Shown: positions 25,892 to 63,444 of the stretch, one piece after another
Layout of the letters: the number at the start of each line of letters is the position of its first letter
How positions within the stretch are numbered: the first letter of the stretch is position 1
Source of the DNA: Formicincola oecophyllae
Lineage (GTDB): Bacteria; Pseudomonadota; Alphaproteobacteria; Acetobacterales; Acetobacteraceae
DNA: 64,000 nucleotides
NCBI RefSeq assembly: GCF_006542395.2
Contig: NZ_CP038231.1
Span: 1,364,001 to 1,428,000, forward strand
Reading direction: 5' to 3'
The notes under the pieces: generated by a model
What the model was told of the DNA's origin: nothing
The model's input: only the letters and a program-made list of their open reading frames with translations
Databases searched by the model: none
Translations under genes and position numbers: made by a program

Positions 25892-27823
25892 TCAACCCTG
25901 CGCCGCGCGCAATAAGTGGAAAATACGCGCGTCACGGCGCGTGTCGGCCTCTTCATCTTCCATGAAGGGGGTTGGGTTTTGCTTCTGAACCGTCAGTGCC
26001 CTGGGCCGCAGCGGGCGCACCACTGTGCTTTCCGGGTGGGGCTGCTGAGGGGCACTTGGCAGCATGGCTGCGATTTCAGCCGGCGTGTGCTCAACGAAGT
26101 CACGCGCCCGGCTTTTCACCAGCTTCAAGTGCGCTTTTTGTCGGCGGGCATGGGCGCGTGCTTCTGTCGTGCTGTTGAATGCAATCTGGCTCACAAGACC
26201 AGCATCACCAAGGTGGTGCCCTTGCAGATCATAAACGTGCACAGCCTGGGCAAGGTTGTCTGGGTCAAACCGCACCACAACCTTGCTTCCAAGATGCTGG
26301 CTCAAGAACGCTGCAGCGTAGCGCGCCCCAAATAGGCGGAAGCTGCCTTCACGTTGGTTGACAGCCACATTTTCGGCAGCCAACAGCCACAAATGCCGTT
26401 GCGCATGGGTGGGTTTGGTGATGGGGGAAACGGCGCAGCTCTCTTCAAACACTTGCCTGAAGCTCTTAACACCGCCGCACACGGTGGAGCGGCGCCCCTC
26501 CCGTGCGTTGTGCTCGTCAATCGCCTGCCCCACTACCTCGATGAATGTAGAAAGTGGCACAGCGGCTTCACCGTAGTTGCTGGGTTTGGTGGCTGTAGTG
26601 TTGCCTGTGTAGGCACCCGCAAAGGCTGGGTGCTTTGCTGTGTCCCGCGCAAAATCCCGCCAGGCGCGTTCAATCGGTTTTGACTGGCCACTGTATGGCT
26701 GCACAAAATGCACTTCTGTGCCAAGCAGGCCCATCACGCCCACCGGGTCACCCACTTTGTGCTTAAAGCGGAACCTTGTCTTGGCGCCGCCAGTCATGCG
26801 CTTGCTTGCGAACGCTCGCCCGTTGTCAAGGTAAGCGTGGGCGGGAATGCCATAACGCTCAACCATGCGACCGTAACTCAGCTGAATAACGTCTGTGGTC
26901 TCTGTTTTGTCCACAGCCCAGCCAAGGATCATGCCTGAATAGAGGTCTTGCCATGCCACCATCAAGGGGCGGCTTGTGGTGCCATCTGGCCAGCGCACCA
27001 TAACGTCCCAGCGGTGGCCATCTGCGTTCACTGCTTCTAGGGCATGGAACACGGCACGGTCACGCTCTTGCACGGGCACAACACGTTTGGCGGCGTCCAG
27101 GCCCTCGCGCCTCAACAGCACCACTTCACGCGGCACCTCGCGCTGCAGGCGGCGGCGCAGGGTGATTGCCGTTGGTATGACCCACCCCTTAACTGCTGCC
27201 ACCGCTTTCAGGCGCCGGTAACAGGCCGCATGGTCTGGTTTCTCTGGGCGCAGGTAGTCTGCAACATAAAAAGCGAACGCGTCAGCGTCACACACGGCTT
27301 CCACCCCGCCGCTGCCGGCAACGCGCAGCAGGCACGGCAGCCAGTGCGGGCGTGGCACATTGTGCACCTGCTGTCGCCAGCGCTTTAAGGTGGCAACGGA
27401 CCTACCAGTTTCCTGCGCGATCATCTCCAGTGATTGGCGCACAGGCGTGCCGCCTTCACGCAACAAGGCAATGGCTGTCACCGCTTGCAGCTTCATCTGC
27501 GCACGCTCTTTGTTGGCTGCGCTGGCCTGGCTGTAAGCCTGCCATAACTCTCCAAAGTCCTCTGTTTTACCAGGCGTGTTGTCCTTGGTGGCTGCACGCG
27601 CTTCACGCATGGCCAGGGCAAGCTGGGCAGGGCGTGGCAGGCAGCTCACTGCAAGTTCAATGCCACCACCACGTCCCTGGCGTTCACGCCACGTGATTCC
27701 CTTCTGGTTGGGGGAAAGCCACCCTTGCCGCTGTGCCTTTTTCCACACATTCTTTTTAGCGCTGGCAAGTCCAGGCAATGCTAAGTCGGCCAATTCTTGC
27801 AGGCCATAGAATTGTCTGTTCAT
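25892..27823 (-). CDS. MuA-like DDE transposase
   Basis: A 643-residue transposase. The N-terminal Mu DNA-binding domains (FYGLQELADLALPGL and WRERQGRGGGIELAV) bind ends. The rve core has the first Asp in ALEAVNADGHRWDVMV (about 268), the second in YLDNGRAF (about 331) and the Glu in PIERAWRDF (about 381). The C-terminal part includes the segment that contacts B. The ATG at 27823 begins the family-like FYGLQELADL region; an extension upstream overlaps the HTH gene. All catalytic residues are seen, so the prophage could be active. Confidence 0.95.
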   Translation of the reverse strand: MNRQFYGLQELADLALPGLASAKKNVWKKAQRQGWLSPNQKGITWRERQGRGGGIELAVSCLPRPAQLALAMREARAATKDNTPGKTEDFGELWQAYSQASAANKERAQMKLQAVTAIALLREGGTPVRQSLEMIAQETGRSVATLKRWRQQVHNVPRPHWLPCLLRVAGSGGVEAVCDADAFAFYVADYLRPEKPDHAACYRRLKAVAAVKGWVIPTAITLRRRLQREVPREVVLLRREGLDAAKRVVPVQERDRAVFHALEAVNADGHRWDVMVRWPDGTTSRPLMVAWQDLYSGMILGWAVDKTETTDVIQLSYGRMVERYGIPAHAYLDNGRAFASKRMTGGAKTRFRFKHKVGDPVGVMGLLGTEVHFVQPYSGQSKPIERAWRDFARDTAKHPAFAGAYTGNTTATKPSNYGEAAVPLSTFIEVVGQAIDEHNAREGRRSTVCGGVKSFRQVFEESCAVSPITKPTHAQRHLWLLAAENVAVNQREGSFRLFGARYAAAFLSQHLGSKVVVRFDPDNLAQAVHVYDLQGHHLGDAGLVSQIAFNSTTEARAHARRQKAHLKLVKSRARDFVEHTPAEIAAMLPSAPQQPHPESTVVRPLRPRALTVQKQNPTPFMEDEEADTRRDARIFHLLRAAQG

Positions 27824-28017
27824 GACAGCCGCCTTAGCGCTGACTTGATAACGCCTATTTCCAGCCAAGATGGCACTTTGGTGCCGTTTTCGATGGCGCG
27901 CAGCGTTTCAACGCTCAAACATGTGTGCACAGCAAACATTTCAAGACTGACATGCCGCGCTTCACGCTGGCACTGCACAGTCCCGGCCCAGGCCAGGGCC
28001 AGTTCCTGCCTGCCCAT
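27820..28017 (-). CDS. Small HTH early protein
   Basis: A 65-residue protein with an HTH resembling the XRE fold (VSLEMFAVHTCLSVETLRAIE then GTKVPSWLEI). The ATG at 28017 overlaps the Ner-like stop (TGATG) and the stop overlaps the transposase ATG. It is probably a second early regulator next to Ner, but no specific function is known. A GTG one codon upstream is possible. Confidence 0.68.
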   Translation of the reverse strand: MGRQELALAWAGTVQCQREARHVSLEMFAVHTCLSVETLRAIENGTKVPSWLEIGVIKSALRRLS

Positions 28018-29958: not shown

Positions 29959-32241
29959 TTAGCGTGACCACCAGCCTTTACGGCGTTGGGCTGGCTGAAC
30001 GTCATCAACATCCAGTGGCTTGGGCGCAGCCAGGTTTTCAGGCGTGACTGGTGCTGCTGCTTTCTCCTCTTTCTGGGGCTTGGGCGCTGCTGTGTTCACA
30101 GGGGCAGCTGGCGCCCTTTGCGGTTGCGGCGCCGGTTGCTGGGCTGCTGGGTTGGTTGCTTCAGCTGCAGGGGCTTTGCTGGCAACCTCTTCAGCAGGTG
30201 GCGCATCATTGAGGCGTCGCGTGCGTGTGCGCTTCATGCCTGGCATCAGGTAGCCATTGTCAGCGCTTGGTGTGGGGGCGGTTCTACCACGGCCCTCAGG
30301 GCGCTCCTGCAGGCGGTTAGGGCGCTGCTCAGCAGGCTGTTGTTCAGAACGTTCCTGGGGGCGTTCCTGGCGTTCTGACCTGCGGCGCCTGCCACCACGC
30401 TCACGCTGGCGGGGGGGCTCAGCATCTGCTCCCTCTGCCTGAGCAGGGGAGGGGGCTTCAGACGTTTTCCCACGTGTTGGCTCAGGCGCTGGGGACGGTT
30501 TGGGGGGTGCATCATTGAAGGTGTTTTCAACGTCAATGATGCGCTCATGGGCTGCAGGCGCGGTGCGGTGGCTACTGCTACGCCCTTCCTGCGGCGTGCC
30601 AGCGCTTTCAGCGCGCGGGCTGGCAGCGGCACTGGTGCCGTCAAGCTGGACGACGATTTCATCCTCGCCGCGCTCTATCTGGATGCTCTCCCCAAAGCGC
30701 CCGCTATCAGCGGCGAAAATCACATGGAGGCCATGGCGCTGCTCAATCTCGTCAAGGTGGTCGCGCTTGGCGTTCAGCAGGTAAAGGGCCACATCTGGAG
30801 CGATGGAGACCGTGACTGTGCCCCCCTGGTTGGCTGCGCCATCCTTGTCCAACGCACGCAGCACATGAAGCGCTGCGCTTTCAACGGAACGGACCCGCCC
30901 GGTCCCACTGCAGCGCGGGCAGGTGGAGAAGACGTTCTCCGCCAAGGAAGGCCGCAAACGTTGGCGCGACATTTCAAGCAGGCCAAAGCTGGAGATCTTG
31001 CCCACCTGCAAGCGCGCCTTGTCGTTGCGCAACGCATCTTTAAGGCGCTTTTCCACCTGGGTGCGGTGACGGCTACTCTCCATGTCGATGAAGTCAATCA
31101 CCACAAGGCCAGCCAAATCGCGCAGGCGCAGCTGGCGGGCGATTTCGTCAGCGGCTTCCAGGTTGGTGGAAATGGCCGTGTCCTCCACATTGCGCTGCGA
31201 GGTGGACTTGCCTGAGTTGACGTCAATCGCTACCAGCGCCTCTGTCTGGTTAATGACGATGTAGCCACCAGACTCCAGCTGCACAGTGGGGGAGAACATG
31301 GCGTCCAGCCGGCTTTCCACATTGTGGTGGGCGAACAGGGGCTGGTTGCCTTCCTGTGGCCACAGCTTCACCTGGGCTGCCTGGTTGGGCATCAGAACCT
31401 GGGCGAAGGCGCGGCACTGATTCCAGGCTTCTTCGCCATCTACCGTTACATCCGCCACATCTGGGGTGAACATGTCGCGCACGGCGCGCTTGACCAGGCT
31501 GGCCTCCTCATAGATCAGCGCAGGGGCTGTTTCCTCCAAGGCGCGCTGGCGGATGTCCTCCCACAGCTGCAGGAGGACGTCGCAGTCACGCACGATCTCT
31601 GGGCTAGGCTGGCCTGCGCCAGCGGTGCGCACGATCATGGCCATGCTGTCGGGCAGTTCCAGGCTGCTGATGGCATCACGCAGGCGGCGGCGGTCGCTTT
31701 CAGAAGAGATCTTGCGCGACACCCCGCCAGGCTTGAGAGCATTGGGCATGAATACGCAGTAACGCCCCGCCAGCGACAAGCATGTGGTCAGCGAGGCGCC
31801 CTTGTTGCCGCGCTCGTCCTTGACGATTTGCACAAGCATGGGCTGACGGCGCCTGATGACTTCCTGGATTTTGTAGTTGCGCAGGAAACGCGCAGCCCGG
31901 CTTGGCCCTTCGTCATTGTCGCTAGCATTGCCTTGGTCTTCAGCCTCACGCCGGTCCTCCGCCTGGAGGGCAGCCAGCATGGCACGGTCAGCATCGGGCA
32001 TCTGGAAATAATCGGGGTGGATCTCGCTGAAAGGCAGGAAGCCGTGGCGGTTGCCGCCGTAATCCACAAAGGCCGCCTGCAGGCTTGGCTCAATGCGGAT
32101 GACACGCCCCAGGTAGATGTTACCTTTAAGCTGGCGGCGCGAGGCCGTCTCAACGTCGTATTCCTCAATGCGTTTGCCGTCCATCACCACCACGCGCGTT
32201 TCCTCGGCGTGGGTGGCATCGATGAGCATATGTTTTGTCAT
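29959..32241 (-). CDS. rne: Ribonuclease E
   Basis: A 760-residue RNase E/G family endonuclease that starts decay of mRNA and processes rRNA and tRNA. The N-terminus KHMLIDATHAEETRVVV and the S1 domain (RQLKGNIYLGRVIRIEPSLQ) are of the alphaproteobacterial kind. The catalytic metal-binding Asp lie in ALVAIDVNSGKST (about 325) and LVVIDFIDM (about 370). The Zn-link CPRCSGTGRV is at about 442. The last 250 residues are Pro/Ala/Glu/Arg-rich and disordered, the degradosome scaffold region. The ATG at 32241 precedes the conserved start; an extension to 32265 is unlikely. Confidence 0.95.
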   Translation of the reverse strand: MTKHMLIDATHAEETRVVVMDGKRIEEYDVETASRRQLKGNIYLGRVIRIEPSLQAAFVDYGGNRHGFLPFSEIHPDYFQMPDADRAMLAALQAEDRREAEDQGNASDNDEGPSRAARFLRNYKIQEVIRRRQPMLVQIVKDERGNKGASLTTCLSLAGRYCVFMPNALKPGGVSRKISSESDRRRLRDAISSLELPDSMAMIVRTAGAGQPSPEIVRDCDVLLQLWEDIRQRALEETAPALIYEEASLVKRAVRDMFTPDVADVTVDGEEAWNQCRAFAQVLMPNQAAQVKLWPQEGNQPLFAHHNVESRLDAMFSPTVQLESGGYIVINQTEALVAIDVNSGKSTSQRNVEDTAISTNLEAADEIARQLRLRDLAGLVVIDFIDMESSRHRTQVEKRLKDALRNDKARLQVGKISSFGLLEMSRQRLRPSLAENVFSTCPRCSGTGRVRSVESAALHVLRALDKDGAANQGGTVTVSIAPDVALYLLNAKRDHLDEIEQRHGLHVIFAADSGRFGESIQIERGEDEIVVQLDGTSAAASPRAESAGTPQEGRSSSHRTAPAAHERIIDVENTFNDAPPKPSPAPEPTRGKTSEAPSPAQAEGADAEPPRQRERGGRRRRSERQERPQERSEQQPAEQRPNRLQERPEGRGRTAPTPSADNGYLMPGMKRTRTRRLNDAPPAEEVASKAPAAEATNPAAQQPAPQPQRAPAAPVNTAAPKPQKEEKAAAPVTPENLAAPKPLDVDDVQPAQRRKGWWSR

Positions 32242-32815
32242 GAAAGGGTGGACTCCGGGGCGCACCGCGCCGGGGCGTGGCCCCAGGCCTTGCCGGTGTG
32301 CCGGTTATCGTGCGGAACTGAACCCGGCTGCCGCTGCGCTCTGCGCCACTGCGCCTTGGGCAGTGCGCGCATGGACTGGGCAGCATACCCACGCAGCTGG
32401 TGTGGCGAGAGAAGGCCCCGTGCCTGCGTCATCTCGTCATAGCCATGCTGGGTTGCATCGGGTTCCCTGAAATATCGTCGTCCGGAAGCAGCCGGAGATG
32501 AAAACGGTCGCTTCCTGCCGGCAGTCCGCTGCCCAGCGCCAGAAGCCTGCCCCTTGCGCGTGCGGTGGGGTGGCTGTGCTGGCCTGGAGCCCGGCTGGGT
32601 GTTTCCCCGCACCTGATGTTGAAAGGGCACAGGGACATGGAAGCTTGCGCTGGGAAGAATGACTTAAACCCTTTCCCCGTGCAAGTGTTCGTTTCATGCG
32701 CTATTCTGTGGTCTTGAATTCTATGGTCCTGGCACAGTGTGCCTGCCCAGCACCGTGGGTGCCCCCTGGCATATGGCAAAGGTGAAGACTGCGGCATAAG
32801 GGAGTTTTGGTAAGC
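32242..32815. other. Intergenic region between rne and amidase
   Basis: This 574-bp gap between divergent genes has no reading frame that I can support. It should hold the promoters of both genes and a long rne leader (RNase E mRNAs are often autoregulated through their leader). A TTGCAC-N17-CATTCT sequence on the leftward strand near 32650-32690 is a weak promoter candidate. Confidence 0.4.
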
Positions 32816-56966: not shown

Positions 56967-58232
56967 ATGCATGACATCAAAGCCCTGCGCGCCGCCCCTG
57001 AAGCTTTTGATGCGGCCTTGAAGCGCCGCGGCATGGAACCTGTGGCCACCCTTCTGGTGGAGAGAGACGCCCAACGCCGCCAGGCCCTGGCCGAACTGCA
57101 GGAAGCTCAGGCGCGCCGCAAGACCCTGGCCAAGGAGATTGGCCAGGCTAAGCGCGCCAAGCAGGACAGCACGGCGCTGGAGGGGGAGGCCGTGGCCCTG
57201 CGCGAGCGCATCGCGGGGCTGGAGGAAACCGCCAACACTATTCAGGCGGAAATTGACGATACCCTCATGCGGTTGCCCAATGTCCTGGACAGCGCCGTGC
57301 CTGATGGGCGCGATGAGCAGGACAATGTCGAAATCAAGCAGGTTGGCAAGCGCCCTGACTTCGCCTTCACCCCCAAGCAGCATTTTGAGCTGGGGGAGGC
57401 GCTGGGGCTGATGGACTTCCCCACAGCCGCCAAAATCGCCGGCAGCCGTGCCGTGATGCTGAAAGGCGCGCTGGCGCGGCTGGAGCGCGCCCTGGGCCAG
57501 TTCATGCTGGACACCCACACGGGGGAATTCGGCTACCAGGAGACCACGGTGCCTGTCCTGGTCAACACGGCAGCCATGACGGGCACGGACAAGCTGCCCA
57601 AATTCGCTGAGGATTCATTCCGCACCACAGATGATCGCTGGCTCATCCCCACAGGGGAAGTGCCGCTGACGGCTTCCGTGATGGGGGACATCCTGCCGGC
57701 GGAGGCGCTGCCGATGCGCCTCACCACCCTTTCGCAGTGCTTCCGGTCAGAGGCTGGCTCCGCTGGGCGGGACGTACGCGGCATGTTGCGCCAGCACCAA
57801 TTCACCAAGTGCGAGCTGGTCTCCATCGTGGCGCCTGAGGACAGCGCGGCGGAGCATGAGCGCATGACGCGCGCCGCCGAAACCGTCCTGGAGCGGCTGG
57901 GCATCCCTTACCGCCGCGTTCTTCTGTGCGCTGGGGACACAGGCTTTGGCGCTGCTAAGACCTTTGACCTGGAAGCCTGGATGCCAGGCCAGGATGCTTG
58001 GCGGGAGGTCTCCTCCTGCTCCAACACGCGTGACTTCCAGGCGCGCCGCATGAATGCGCGCTACCGCGGGGCGGATGGCAAGCCGCAGTTCCTCCATACC
58101 CTCAATGGCTCTGGGCTGGCTGTGGGGCGCGTCCTGATCGCCGTGATGGAAAACTTCCAGAACGCGGACGGCACCATCACCATCCCCGAACCCCTCCGCC
58201 CCTATATGGGTGGAATGGAGAAAGTGGGCTGA
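56967..58232 (+). CDS. serS: Seryl-tRNA synthetase
   Basis: A 421-residue class II synthetase. The N-terminal coiled-coil tRNA arm is at about 30-105. Motif 2 is [20 protein letters not shown] ([15 protein letters not shown]) and motif 3 is [23 protein letters not shown] at 56967. The tatB-tatC-serS order is common in alphaproteobacteria. Confidence 0.97.
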
Positions 58233-58240
58233 AAAGGGAA

Positions 58241-59164
58241 TTAATTTGGAGTCCTATAGAAATAGCTAGAATATTTTCTCTGTAACGTAGAGCGCAGATG
58301 GTCCAGATCCGGGAAAACTGTGCTTTCATTGATGCCAAAGAACGTATCCAGTTCATCCAGGATTCGTTCCTTGGCAGCGCTGGCAACAGGTATTTTCCAG
58401 TAACTGTAATCTTCATCTAAGGATTTGTTTTTAGGCCCAAAAAGGATGAAAGACCCTTTTTGAGCTACAATTCTTTTGTTGGAAAGGCGGGGTCTAAGGA
58501 GGAAGTGCTTATTAAAGCACGCATCTATTTCTTTTTTTAACTTTGTTGGAATATCATAAGATTCACCTATTTTATTTTTAATCATCTTATTGAAAATCTC
58601 ACTTCTTTTTTCAATTAATATTTCTTTATATCCTTCAATAAGGATTTTATCCTCCAAAAAATCAGGATCAATTTCGAATAATTTATCCGCGGTTGAGGAA
58701 AAAATTAATGATGATAGAGCATTGATGTATGGGTCACTTTCAAAGCAAATATGATCTGTTTTGGGATTAAAAACAAATGAGTTTCCATTTACGGAATTGT
58801 CATCGCAACAAGCGAAATAAAGTCCAATTAACATATCTTCTGAGATGTCAAGTAAGCGAGTGGGTATACTGAAGTGCTGCATCCGTACCAATTTTTGAAT
58901 AATGGTGAGATCATCGCGAAACTCTTCAGGCTGAGCTGAAAGAGCTTCATTATATATAAATGATTCATTATAGTATAAAAATCTATCTCTAAAAACAGTA
59001 GGTGTTAGCTCCCATGTTTCATTATTTTGGCCACGAAAGTAAAGAGGATTATATTGATCGAACTTTAATTTACCAGTGCTATAATTTCCTCCCTGGATTT
59101 CTTTACAAATCTCCAGCGCTTTGCCGACAGAATCAATAACTGAATCAATTTCTTTGACTGCCAT
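58241..59164 (-). CDS. FRG-domain protein, AT-rich
   Basis: A 307-residue protein. The FRG signature starts with LYFRGQNNETWELTPTVFR (about 40-58), then LVRMQHFSIPTRLLDIS (about 92-108) and IVAQKGSFILFG (about 230). The FRG domain is a predicted alpha-helical/ADP-ribosyl-like fold found in abortive-infection and other phage defence proteins, but its activity is unclear. Base composition is far lower in GC than all neighbours and rare AT-rich codons are frequent, a sign of recent transfer. It is convergent with serS (8-bp gap). AGGA lies eight bases before the ATG. Confidence 0.85.
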   Translation of the reverse strand: MAVKEIDSVIDSVGKALEICKEIQGGNYSTGKLKFDQYNPLYFRGQNNETWELTPTVFRDRFLYYNESFIYNEALSAQPEEFRDDLTIIQKLVRMQHFSIPTRLLDISEDMLIGLYFACCDDNSVNGNSFVFNPKTDHICFESDPYINALSSLIFSSTADKLFEIDPDFLEDKILIEGYKEILIEKRSEIFNKMIKNKIGESYDIPTKLKKEIDACFNKHFLLRPRLSNKRIVAQKGSFILFGPKNKSLDEDYSYWKIPVASAAKERILDELDTFFGINESTVFPDLDHLRSTLQRKYSSYFYRTPN

Positions 59165-59183
59165 TTAAACATTCCTAACAAAC

Positions 59184-59210
59184 AAAAAGGAGGATGAATC
59201 ATCACCCTCC
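59184..59210 (-). terminator. Leftward terminator before FRG gene
   Basis: On the leftward strand GGAGGGTGA and TCATCCTCC pair (one mismatch) and are followed by TTTTT. It ends the transcript of the upstream protein at 59275-60123 and separates it from the FRG gene, only 20 bp on. Confidence 0.72.
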
Positions 59211-59274
59211 CTAAACCAAACATTCCCATGAAAAGCAACTTTAGCCGCTCAGGCCTTTGCGCTTTGGCTGTGGG

Positions 59275-60123
59275 TCAGCCTGGGAAGAAGTCCATTTTGC
59301 CGAAGCGGTTGTCATCCACCTGGTTGCAGAGGAACAGACGGCTGCCCAGCGTTTTGCCGTCTTCCTTGAAGCCATGGAAATGCACGCCGTCTTCAGAGAA
59401 GGCCACGCGGATGTAGCGCTTGCCTGAGATGGCGTCAGCGATCTCAATGAACAGGCGGCGGCCTTCCTCATTGCCGAAGGCGAAGGCGTAATGGCATTCG
59501 GAACCGCGGCGGGCTGCGTCAATCAGCAGGTCGTTGTCCTTGGCGCGCACTGTGGTGATGGAGCGGTTGCGTGAGCTGAAGCGGGAGAACCCCTCCAGGT
59601 CTTTGGAGACTTTCAGCGCGTTGATGAGCGTCTGGCCGTCAGGGACGTTGAAAATGCCGCCTTCCGCATTGGGCGTGAACAGCTTGGCGTTCTTGCCGTG
59701 CGGGATGATGGAGGTGGTGCCTGTGCTGTCCGCCCCGAATCCTGACGGCCAGATGAGGTCAAGCGAGCGCAGCATGGGACCAAAGCCCGCCACAAGCTTG
59801 ATGTCAGCATGGATGGAGGCCGTGCCTGCGGTGATTTTCCCATCCGTGCAGAAGCCGTATTTCAACGTCAGGGTTGGCACGCCGCAGAAGCTCATGATGT
59901 CGAGCGCGACATGGCGTTCAGAGCTGTTCTGGAAGCTGGCGATGTTGTAATCGCCGCCCTTTTCCGCCTGGAGCTGGTCAGCCAAGGTGGCGCTGAAGGA
60001 ATAGGGGGCGGGGGAGATGCGGCCCTTCAGCGCTGTGGTGGGGTCGCTGAGGCCAAAGTCGAATGTGTATTCGGGGGACTGGGCACGCAGGATGGAGGCG
60101 GGGAGGGGGGGCACGGTGGCCAT
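59275..60123 (-). CDS. Unrecognised protein, 282 residues
   Basis: A 282-residue soluble protein of no recognised family. There is no signal peptide or membrane span. The sequence is rich in beta-type segments (GKRYIRVAFSEDGVHFHGF near the end; MSFCGVPTLTLKYGF near 78), with a middle region around SFGADSTGTTSII-like turns. ATG at 60123 is preceded by a GGAGG-like run. A terminator follows. Codon use is like the host. It is probably a conserved hypothetical protein of acetic acid bacteria, but nothing in it gives a function. Confidence 0.7.
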   Translation of the reverse strand: MATVPPLPASILRAQSPEYTFDFGLSDPTTALKGRISPAPYSFSATLADQLQAEKGGDYNIASFQNSSERHVALDIMSFCGVPTLTLKYGFCTDGKITAGTASIHADIKLVAGFGPMLRSLDLIWPSGFGADSTGTTSIIPHGKNAKLFTPNAEGGIFNVPDGQTLINALKVSKDLEGFSRFSSRNRSITTVRAKDNDLLIDAARRGSECHYAFAFGNEEGRRLFIEIADAISGKRYIRVAFSEDGVHFHGFKEDGKTLGSRLFLCNQVDDNRFGKMDFFPG

Positions 60124-60744
60124 GGGCGCAGATCCTTTTCAGACCTTCAGGAGGGCGAATTCAACGCCGGCAACCCCCTGGTCACAGGGCCAATGGAACC
60201 GCTGGCGGAATGTTTCCCAACCACCCTAAAGCTTTTTTTAGAGTGCGTGCCTAAACTTTTGGACAGGCGAAGCAAGCCCTTGGCGCATGGCTCGCGTTGT
60301 GCAGGCCCCAGCCCTTCCCCTCCCTTTTTGGTGCCTGGTGCGGCTGGCGCGGGGGATATGCGGCCTTTCAGCGTTGTTTTGTGAGGCCCAGCTCCGCCCA
60401 GCAGCCAGCGCCTTATGCAGTCGCCTTAGACAGTGCTTTGTGTGGGACAGGAAGGAAGAATGAAGAGGGGGGAGGCTTGGACCCCATCCCCCTTACAGCG
60501 ATGTTGCCTGTGGGCTCAGGCTGCGCCCTGCACGCTTCAAGGGCGTGCCTGTCATTAAGGCCATTAAGATAAGGCCAGGCCGTTAAAAGCTACTGCGGGC
60601 AGGTCATCTTTTCAGGCGCCCAAGGCTGGCCAGGAAGAGGACAGGCCCACACCACCCTCCAGGCCAAGATACCGCAACAAGGGCACAGGCGCCCTTGCTG
60701 GTAGGCTACCTGCCCCAGCCTGGCTGGCGGCTGCCTTTAGGCCC
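60124..60744. other. Intergenic region
   Basis: This 621-bp gap between two leftward genes has no supported gene. It has a short inverted repeat CAAGGGC/GCCCTTG (60678-60697) without T run. It should hold the promoter of the 282-residue protein and the end of the helicase transcript. Confidence 0.4.
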
Positions 60745-63444
60745 TTAGGCCCTGCTGCGGGGCTTACTGTTGCCGCGCTTGGGGCGCTTGCCTGTGCCGG
60801 CGCCAGCCCGCCCACGGTGGGGGCTGGTGCCTTTGGCCTTGGGCGTATCCTTGCCGCGCCCACGCCCTGGGCGGGGGCCAGCGCCACCAGCACCAGGGCG
60901 GCCACGGCCGCCACTGCGGTAGCCTTGGCGCTGGCGGGAGCTTTCGCGCATCTGGCTCTGGTTGCGCAGAACGCCTTCAATCCACTCATTGAGGTCGGCT
61001 GCGGTTTTTTCCGCCCCCTCAATGTCGGCATAGACTTCAGGGAAGCGCTGCGCCAACCAGCGCCACGTCACCAGCAGGCGGTGGCGCTTCTCCGCCCTGC
61101 CAAGCTCCTCGTTGGAGGCAAGTTCCGGCCGGGGCAACATGCCCATGCCAGGCGGCGGCACCTTCTGGCCACGCGCATGCTGGGCGGCCCAGTCCACCAG
61201 CAGGGGCAGGTCGTTGTCGCGCGTGTTGACGGGGCACATGGCGTAGGTCCAGCGCGTCTGCAGGTCCAGGCCATCGATCCCCTCCAGCGCAGCGGCGATC
61301 TCCATAGACTGATCCATGTCGGCCAAGCGGTAGTTGGGGTCGTCCGGGCGCAGGACGGCGCGCTTGATGCGCGCCAGCACGCCATAGAGGCTGTCTGTGC
61401 CGATCTCGTCCGCCACGGCCTGGATGATGTCGGCGTCTGGCTGGACGTAGGGGCGCAGCTCCTCCTGCGGTTCCGGTGGGGCGTCAAGCATCTTCTTGAT
61501 ATAGGTCGGGCTGCCGGCGCCTTCCAGAACGCATACAAGCCCTTCCTCATGCATGCCGTAGCGCCCGGCGCGCCCACCGATCTGCTTGATCTCCTGCGTG
61601 GTCAAGGTGCGTGTGTTGCGCCCATCGAACTTCTGGAGGGAGCTGAACACAACCCGCTTGATGGAGAGGTTCAGCCCCATGCCGATGGCGTCCGTGGCGA
61701 TGAGAACGTCCGCCTCCCCACTGTTGAAGCGTGCAGCCTCCGCCCGGCGCACCTCTGGGCTGAGGGCGCCGTAAATAACGGCCACCTTCTTGCCCTGCGC
61801 CATCAGCTGGGCGCGCAAGTCCAGCACCTCCCGCCTAGAGAAGGCGATGAGGGCATCGCCTGTCGTCAGCTCCTCCAGCGCCAGGGCGCCACCAGCCTTG
61901 AGAGGGCTTTTGCGCTCTAAGTGGATCTCGTCCACCTCGTCACCGCACAAGGCCGCGATGCGCTTGACGTGAGGAATGCAGTCAGCAGCGCCCAGGATGA
62001 AAATGTGCCGCGCTGGAACACCCATGATGGCGGCCGTCCAAGCGGCGCCGCGGTCCTGGTCTGAAAGCATCTGGGCTTCGTCAATCAAGGCCACGTCAAC
62101 GGGACGGTTGAAGCCGCACATCTCCACCGTTGCAGCGTTGTGCTTGGCGGTTGGGTCGATGATGCGCTCCTCCCCCGTGGTGAGGGAGGCAGGCACCCCC
62201 CGGCTGACCAGGGCCTCGCGGAATTCATGGGCCAAAAGGCGCAGCGGGGCCAGCGCCACGCCGCTTTCAGCGTTGGCCAGGGTGGTCAGGGCAGTGTGGG
62301 ACTTGCCTGAGTTGGTCGGCCCCGTCACCAGCGTGATGCGGCGCTTCATGGAGCGCGCTGTGGTGAAGTGGCCAGCGAAGCGGTCCATGGAGGCCACGCG
62401 CGCAATGGCCGCGTTGGCTGGGGCGGAGCTGGCGTTGGCTTCGGCGTCAGCCAGGGCCACGGCGCTTTCGCCTGCCACCTGCTGGGCGGCCTCTGGCTCC
62501 GTGATGGGGGCGTGGGCTGGGCCGTTGCGCCCTTCGCGCCAGTGGCGCACCAGCGGCTTGATGGATTTGAGCTCGGCTGGGTCGAAGCGGAAGACCTCCT
62601 GCCCATCAGGCAGGGTTTCGCGCTGGGCGATGGGCAGGCGGTTTTCAGCGAACCAGCGCAGCGCCTCCCTGCGGGAACAGTGGAGGATGGCGGGCAGGGC
62701 GTCAAAATCGACCAGGGTCGCTTCCCACTGGCGCAGGCGCTCCAGCTCCTGCGCTTTGCGTTCCTCAGCGCGGCGGCGGATTTCGGCGCGTTCACGCTCG
62801 CGCCTCTCCTCAGCGACCAGCATTTCGTCAGCCAGGCCGCCATCAACCCCGCCGAAGGCGCGTCCAATGCTTTGGGCCAGGCGCTCCCCCTGCTTGGCCG
62901 TCAGGAACAGGCCCATGCTGCTGAATTCACCGCGCGCCTCACGCTGGACGTCCTCTGGCGTGTCGCCAAGGGTGCGCCAGCGCTTCTCCACCACAGCGGC
63001 CAAGGCGTCCTCCAAGGCGGCCTGGGTGGCCAAGGGGTCCTTGACCTGGTTGGCAGCGGCTGTAGCGTCAGCGCGGCGCACCCAGACATCGCCCTGCTTC
63101 TGGGCGTTGGTCAGCAGGTCATTGGCCCAACCGCGCCGCCTGACGCGGCAAAGCATGTCCAGGAAGGCCGGCCCCTCCACCACGGCTTTCAGGGGCGTTG
63201 CGCTGTCCTGGGCGGCCGCGCGCCCCTGCAGGTTGCCTTTGACCATCTGGGTCAGGCTATCCCGCTCCTGGGGGGTGATAGCAAGGCGCCCCCCAAAGCC
63301 TTGCTCCGCGTCAGTCACTGCCTGGGCGGCAGCGCTGGACAGGGCCGCTTCAGCGTGGGGCGCTGGGGCATTATTATTGTTGTTTTCGCTGTCAGCGCTG
63401 CCAGCATCCAGGTGGAGTGGCGCGCGGGGTGTCAATGTGTTCAT
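60745..63444 (-). CDS. Suv3/MgpS-like helicase
   Basis: An 899-residue SF2 helicase. A long N-terminal region with an HTH-like/coiled part (about 200-330) precedes the helicase core: Walker A VTGPTNSGKSHTAL (about 378), Walker B ALIDEAQMLSDQDRG (about 455), ATDAIGMGLNLSIKRVVF (motif V) and QIGGRAGRYG (motif VI, about 625). The C-terminus is Arg/Gly/Pro-rich and basic. These helicases, relatives of mitochondrial Suv3, unwind RNA and probably work in RNA turnover. ATG at 63444. Confidence 0.9.
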   Translation of the reverse strand: MNTLTPRAPLHLDAGSADSENNNNNAPAPHAEAALSSAAAQAVTDAEQGFGGRLAITPQERDSLTQMVKGNLQGRAAAQDSATPLKAVVEGPAFLDMLCRVRRRGWANDLLTNAQKQGDVWVRRADATAAANQVKDPLATQAALEDALAAVVEKRWRTLGDTPEDVQREARGEFSSMGLFLTAKQGERLAQSIGRAFGGVDGGLADEMLVAEERRERERAEIRRRAEERKAQELERLRQWEATLVDFDALPAILHCSRREALRWFAENRLPIAQRETLPDGQEVFRFDPAELKSIKPLVRHWREGRNGPAHAPITEPEAAQQVAGESAVALADAEANASSAPANAAIARVASMDRFAGHFTTARSMKRRITLVTGPTNSGKSHTALTTLANAESGVALAPLRLLAHEFREALVSRGVPASLTTGEERIIDPTAKHNAATVEMCGFNRPVDVALIDEAQMLSDQDRGAAWTAAIMGVPARHIFILGAADCIPHVKRIAALCGDEVDEIHLERKSPLKAGGALALEELTTGDALIAFSRREVLDLRAQLMAQGKKVAVIYGALSPEVRRAEAARFNSGEADVLIATDAIGMGLNLSIKRVVFSSLQKFDGRNTRTLTTQEIKQIGGRAGRYGMHEEGLVCVLEGAGSPTYIKKMLDAPPEPQEELRPYVQPDADIIQAVADEIGTDSLYGVLARIKRAVLRPDDPNYRLADMDQSMEIAAALEGIDGLDLQTRWTYAMCPVNTRDNDLPLLVDWAAQHARGQKVPPPGMGMLPRPELASNEELGRAEKRHRLLVTWRWLAQRFPEVYADIEGAEKTAADLNEWIEGVLRNQSQMRESSRQRQGYRSGGRGRPGAGGAGPRPGRGRGKDTPKAKGTSPHRGRAGAGTGKRPKRGNSKPRSRA

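Follow-up and report, generated by a model that had tools for sequence, protein, structure and literature searches.

Frg domains have been placed in the ADP-ribosyltransferase (ART) superfamily, and an antiviral NADase role has been proposed for them (accessible part of PMC9503650). The closest match at the level of protein profiles is PADLOC's PDC-S15, a candidate family only; PDC models were discarded among non-defence, unverified or unpublished ones in another study (accessible part of PMC12409356). At the level of fold, the described systems are MbcT, ParT, RES-Xre and TreX/TreTu, all of which were solved in complex with a cognate antitoxin or immunity protein. ART toxins are also part of CmdTAC (accessible part of PMC9519451) and DarTG (reference titles), both of which are multi-gene systems. 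In phages, phrog_4962 comprises long FRG proteins that carry about 180 N-terminal residues in addition to the FRG core. Against this background, we analysed a gene in a stretch of 64,000 nucleotides of the Formicincola oecophyllae genome (contig NZ_CP038231.1, positions 1,364,001 to 1,428,000), hereafter called the window:

58241-59164, minus strand: FRG-domain gene, 307 aa, with PF08867 at residues 40-124 and PADLOC PDC-S15 at residues 9-300

The ORF is intact, with an ATG start and without internal stops. Its product matched the Pfam profile PF08867 with 58.7 bits (cut-off 25, E 1.1e-15), so both the exact coordinates and the FRG domain of the original prediction were borne out, and the [FY]-R-G motif of the domain is present as YFRGQ at residues 42-46. 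Thirteen PDC-S15 models matched the protein at E ≤1, the best with 212 bits (E 2.8e-63). It also matched phrog_4962, a PHROGs family of unknown function, at E 1e-32. No NCBIfam match was obtained for the window protein, the neighbouring orf282 or three FRG relatives, and a PDB sequence search with the protein and its 55-row profile returned nothing up to E = 10. The window gene is thus a new, divergent, core-only member of the known candidate family PDC-S15, with which it shares a near full-length match, and a divergent core-only FRG example in a 1.96-Mb genome. With the Frg clade as described in the accessible part of PMC9503650, it has in common the FRG motif and a predicted core matching ART structures; it differs in its divergence (at most 37% identity in the tree set), and R44 is its sole catalytic assignment. 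It shares the FRG core with the phrog_4962 proteins but lacks their N-terminal part. It would act like the toxins of CmdTAC and DarTG if its ART activity is real, as a single gene in place of a multi-gene system. To MbcT, ParT, RES-Xre and TreX/TreTu it is linked by fold-level matches within residues 37-276 (Z 3.7 to 6.2), and no cognate antitoxin or immunity protein was found for it.

We consider the window gene to be probably a stand-alone, NAD-using effector of abortive infection that is accessory and moves horizontally. The protein would be built on an ART-like core whose first strand carries the invariant Arg of the FRG motif, and would be held inactive until infection. The trigger might act through a poorly modelled helical part (about residues 151-210). 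Once activated, the protein would consume NAD+ as an NADase or ADP-ribosylate a target, and the growth of the infected cell would be stopped, giving protection from phage. If the ART-fold reading is true, the FRG family adds a one-gene NAD-dependent defence effector, and a common one, as relatives were found at no fewer than 573 genome loci and in 284 plasmid records.

The AlphaFold2 model of the window protein, built from a 55-sequence alignment restricted to core-only proteins (A2), had a mean pLDDT of 84.2 and a pTM of 0.83, and was weaker in the helical part at residues ~151-210. Comparison of the model with 198 candidate chains by VIA-align gave 39 chains with Z ≥2, or 33 rows with one row per entry. 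By title or by entry, we take 26 of the 33 rows to be ART-superfamily proteins, two (8gug and 6kyf) to be possible ones and five (ranks 19, 26, 29, 30, and 31) to be unrelated; as some toxins recur in several rows as different crystals, the rows cannot be counted as independent matches. TreX (Z 6.2), TreTu (6.1), and cholera A1 (6.0) were matched along with ParT, MbcT, RES, NatT, Arr, KptA, and PARP13, all with Z below 8, a range termed middling by the tool. Most ART rows start at model residues 37-40, at the strand carrying R44 of the FRG motif. In ART enzymes, the first core strand carries an Arg or a His; in the model this place is taken by R44, located on strand 42-46. A Foldseek search of the window model against the PDB returned nothing at E ≤0.001, the first row being the MbcT toxin at E 0.66; in BFVD the first row was an ART-PolyVal-like protein (E 0.044). 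The second model, that of a 454-aa relative from the viral contig L065, was based on a 58-row alignment (A5), in which 20 core-only rows come from loci common to A2, and reached a pLDDT of 89.2. Its FRG part (residues 189-423) matched TreTu and TreX in two VIA-align rows with Z 5.6; Foldseek again found nothing in the PDB at E ≤0.001. It is the agreement in kind between the middling matches of the two models that argues for an ART-like fold. Such a fold is predicted for the FRG core of the window protein, in agreement with the published placement of Frg domains (accessible part of PMC9503650).

The conserved segments are as follows:

58928-59059, minus strand: strand 42-46 of the model with YFRGQ (R44, G45) and the segment with E67, residues 36-79; invariant in 55 of 55 sequences
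58847-58879, minus strand: second conserved block QHFSIPTRLLD, residues 96-106 (Q96, H97, T102, R103, D106); 55 of 55
58436-58480, minus strand: third conserved block N.R...Q.GSFILFG, residues 229-243 (R231, Q235, F239); 55 of 55

The residues invariant in all 55 sequences, the window protein included, are R44, G45, E67, Q96, H97, P101, T102, R103, L104, D106, L115, F117, R231, Q235, F239, and K265. The fact that ten of them are polar favours an enzyme. At other positions with more than 90% conservation the window protein deviates, e.g., N110 to D and P111 to M. No invariant residue of the FRG alignment could be placed as the catalytic Glu of the classic R-S-E or of H-Y-E; this role would have to fall to E67 or Q235, or else the chemistry differs. 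A resemblance to the catalytic tetrad of KptA was dropped, as this tetrad lies partly outside the ART core.

The neighbourhood of the FRG gene consists of the following features:

56967-58232, plus strand: serS, convergent neighbour, its stop 8 nt from the FRG stop (gap 58233-58240)
59187-59212, minus strand: terminator-like hairpin of 11 pairs followed by TTTGTTTGTT, found by pattern scan between orf282 and the FRG start
59275-60123, minus strand: orf282, GC 0.610 and GC3 0.806 (native composition), 110 nt upstream of the FRG gene
60745-63444, minus strand: suv3-like helicase gene (Pfam DEXQc_Suv3, 165.9 bits), the right border of a variable interval after serS

The convergent 8-bp gap to the 3' end of serS is therefore exactly as previously described. 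In six relatives, sequence covers serS together with the 3' end of the suv3-like gene convergent to it, and these two genes enclose an interval of 98, 132, 670, 797, 1232, and 1334 nt vs. 2512 nt in the window. The two shortest intervals (G093 and G070, respectively) are too small for any gene, and genome G032 has a different gene there, lipoprotein-like by eye. With lengths of 98-2512 nt across seven genomes and differing contents, the interval (window 58233-60744) is a small variable site, occupied in this lineage by the FRG gene and orf282. Flanking repeats marking a transposition of the FRG gene were not observed, only short AT-rich, chance-like ones. An Rfam search of 57000-62000 revealed no RNA, and neither Pfam nor PHROGs revealed phage genes among the direct neighbours.

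The FRG gene is accessory. Its presence in all relatives was looked for and not found: a protein search with one genome per genus detected a homologue in 5 of 60 genomes, and PF08867 occurred in 32 of 299 family genomes (own genome included in both counts) and in none of 14 control genomes. The genus itself is represented by one genome in the comparison. None of 45 other serS loci (L012-L040, L052, and L218-L232) contained an FRG gene by tblastn at E ≤1e-4; about 1.5 kb downstream of serS was covered in 43 of them and less than 200 nt in L019 and L031. In the scan of genome contigs, the single FRG protein as a query found no relative, while alignment A1 did. In the tree, built from 113 of 162 rows after near-duplicates were dropped (the G029 homologue, not caught by the motif, is missing), the window protein sits on a long branch (1.77), and its highest identity to any member of the set is 37%; its function may therefore have drifted.

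The low GC content of the FRG gene among host genes, the starting point of the original prediction, was confirmed by the composition profile. Its GC is 0.350 and its GC3 0.315, compared to 0.61-0.68 and 0.71-0.81 for tatB, tatC, serS, orf282, and the suv3-like gene. In a profile of 924-nt stretches with a step of 50 nt, it is the lowest-GC stretch of the window (mean 0.615, sd 0.046), the next separate minimum being 0.485. As a sign of arrival, low GC held only in part: the gene is AT-rich, but its recency does not follow, since FRG genes are AT-rich throughout the family. Among the best 80 of at least 573 genome loci, 78 could be resolved, of which 72 came with 5 kb or more of other sequence; the FRG gene was lower in GC than its surroundings in 67 of these 72 (93%), by 0.086 on average, and in 27 of 28 loci with surroundings above 50% GC. 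AT-richness is thus a habit of the family, weak evidence for a recent arrival and no clock for the insertion, and the low GC was no longer taken to prove a recent transfer.

A second FRG gene is present in the same genome ~312 kb away (L215:10724-12091, plus strand; C1 about 1734.7-1736.1 kb). It encodes 455 aa, has a GC of 0.327, shares 45% identity with the window protein across 98 aa and lies upstream of P2-like neck and tail-sheath genes (PHROGs). The tree joined the window protein weakly with it (67/50); given this support and the long branches, no origin is claimed for the window gene. Relatives of the family were found in 8 phage records, 284 plasmid records (201 typed as conjugative), 116 viral contigs, and at least 573 genome loci. 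The second gene next to P2-like phage genes (neck and tail sheath), together with these relatives in phages and plasmids, would suit cargo inherited from a prophage or plasmid, an intact but neutral gene without present function in the host. We give this some weight but regard it as less likely than a working effector, since the full-length ORF keeps the residues that are invariant in 54 aligned relatives, and no phage gene was seen among the direct neighbours. That these residues were kept despite the long branch indicates selection at least until recently.

The absence of partner genes, also predicted earlier, was supported by PADLOC, which revealed no known defence partner among 60 of the 66 called ORFs of the window (four of the six left out lie on the strand opposite the tatB region). 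At E ≤1e-8 only the FRG gene, one dGTPase match and the helicase models HamB and DpdF were obtained. The latter two (one member each, E about 1e-9 to 1e-10) are probably generic helicase matches to the suv3-like gene. Next to the FRG gene no cognate antitoxin gene was recognised: serS lies on one side and orf282, without a family, on the other. The pattern scan found 2 terminator-like sites in the region vs. 4.2 expected in shuffles, a number that is not significant; the hairpin lies in the gap that separates orf282 from the FRG start, which suggests that the two genes are not simply an operon in which the FRG gene comes second. The product of orf282 had no significant Pfam, NCBIfam or PHROGs match. 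Its only homologue in 149 other family genomes (L213:9300-10175, 67% identical) adjoins a tyrosine integrase gene and an ORF resembling Cas3 (Cas3 by eye only), and no FRG match was present in the 19 kb around it. Having no domain, a native composition and a single homologue that stands beside an integrase, orf282 was rejected as an FRG partner.

These results also bear on another reading, in which the gene product is a toxin belonging to a toxin-antitoxin or addiction module whose antitoxin is distant or unrecognised, and infection is not the trigger. The ART-fold toxins with antitoxins among the VIA-align rows (MbcT, ParT, RES, and NatT) and a VapBC pair that follows the FRG gene on an Agrobacterium plasmid are in line with such a module. 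We think it unlikely, as no recognised partner ORF accompanies the gene, with serS on one side and a hairpin separating it from orf282 on the other, and as no FRG match lies in the 19 kb around the one homologue of orf282 in 149 other family genomes.

The stand-alone abortive-infection effector, the preferred reading, draws on the relatives. Known defence genes are absent beside this copy, as far as the 60 ORFs scanned are concerned, and present beside several relatives; the defence case accordingly rests on the contexts of relatives and on the predicted fold. The earlier proposal of a defence candidate stands insofar as this is an accessory FRG gene without a visible partner, but the defence-linked contexts belong to relatives, and none was found at this copy. 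The missing defence neighbours count against the preferred reading, together with the middling Z values, the catalytic Glu that could not be placed and the long branch; as to membership of a defence island, they tell against it for this copy alone.

Related FRG genes lie in prophages, on plasmids and within operons for type I restriction. In the neighbourhood set (best 80 of 116 viral contigs and best 80 of at least 573 genome loci; n = 160), sorted by protein length, core-only proteins were encoded at 29 viral and 39 genome loci, N-extended at 40 and 26, and C-extended at 4 and 13, respectively; one locus was of another type and eight were not resolved. In phage P2_2H1, the FRG gene (30979-32343 of 32662) is located near the right end, beyond the replication gene, and adjoins a reverse-transcriptase gene. 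This position falls in the cos-proximal region, for which a defence hotspot has been reported in P2-like phages (accessible part of PMC9122126); the term 'FRG' is absent from the main text of that paper. On a Rhizobium plasmid, the gene next to the FRG gene is annotated drt2.

Among 143 direct neighbours of FRG genes in the best 80 of at least 573 genome loci, single HsdS models matched up to 10 and HsdR models 8, compared to at most 1 of 143 each among control genes five or six places away (143 proteins drawn from 158); the controls also matched type I methyltransferase models (3 of 143) and mad2 (4 of 143). This contrast is indicative, since the gene calls came from a simple script, some spurious ORFs overlap the FRG gene and the controls are shorter (33,635 aa in sum vs. 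45,783 aa for the direct neighbours). In Vibrio harveyi (L172:4658-10364), the gene order by Pfam is hsdS-FRG-hsdR. A C-extended FRG gene directly before an ORF of ~1000-1270 aa was found in L172, L154, L155, L160, L175, L176, L178, L198, and L203, and of the 10 FRG genes followed directly by an ORF of 950 aa or more, 9 were C-extended. The link to type I restriction therefore concerns mainly the C-extended form and is not transferable by itself to the core-only window form. TssD was matched by 3 of the 143 direct neighbours, one of them in Phocaeicola coprophilus (L144:5263-7465), where 331 nt separate an N-extended FRG gene from the Hcp (TssD) gene downstream. These neighbours may be a hint that some FRG effectors are secreted in Bacteroidales; that the window gene itself encodes an antibacterial effector exported to rivals is very improbable, although the fact that no secretion gene was noticed near it among the matches listed (25 of 49 Pfam families) is a weak argument.

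A more unusual lead comes from long FRG proteins, among them those of P2-like and other phages: their ~180 extra N-terminal residues, which the window protein lacks, are modelled as a reader-like domain. Residues 1-151 of the L065 model matched EVE, YTH, and ASCH structures in 47 of 50 VIA-align rows, the best being 2eve with Z 7.1; many EVE/YTH rows are crystals of the same YTH proteins, and several entries are presumably EVE. Of the other three rows, two were the ART rows and one was 7s9w (Z 5.5), the DrmA protein of a defence system. The first Foldseek row was a YTH domain at E 0.043, amid unrelated rows. A Pfam search (E ≤1) with 38 long-FRG N-termini (set A7: L065:4428-4961 and 37 others) matched 14 families, each by a single member, with neither EVE nor YTH among them, and a PDB profile search with these N-termini yielded no EVE or YTH entry. 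The sequence searches thus did not back the resemblance; from its fold, the L065 model suggests that long FRG proteins are possibly a modified-base reader fused to an ART-like core. EVE domains are described as modified-base readers in restriction and toxin contexts (accessible part of PMC7641849). 'FRG' does not occur in the main texts of PMC7641849 and PMC11090510 by term search, nor in that of DefensePredictor (PMC13092281). No title or abstract on an EVE/YTH-FRG fusion or on FRG activity, and no account of phage protection by PDC-S15, was found by a search whose range excluded preprints, most subscription papers, and supplements. If the ART-fold reading is true, the reader-like domain of the long forms offers a concrete trigger candidate.

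A wider scheme, which we put forward tentatively and hold to be rather doubtful, would make FRG proteins a broad class of infection-triggered effectors with an ART fold. The long forms would act as single-protein sentinels, wiring an EVE/YTH-like reader for modified bases or nucleotides to an NAD-consuming FRG core and thereby answering phages with modified nucleic acids; the C-extended forms would guard type I restriction against breakage or tampering; core-only proteins, the window gene included, would represent the class at its smallest, with control exerted by a helical insert of their own.

Elsewhere in the window, a Mu-like prophage occupies about 2463-27868 on the minus strand, with these genes located in it:

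25895-27868, minus strand: MuA-like transposase, 39% to Ochrobactrum phage POA1180
2463-3719, minus strand: Mu gpP-like baseplate protein

Mu portal, gpT, protease, Gp27, and Gp36 domains were also detected among the window ORFs in the Pfam tally, which gives no places. Of the next lowest GC minima of the window, one (from 23.7 kb) lies in this prophage and one (from 28.5 kb) just beyond the transposase. A tRNA-Sec gene with the anticodon tca was called by ARAGORN at 30158-30247 on the plus strand.
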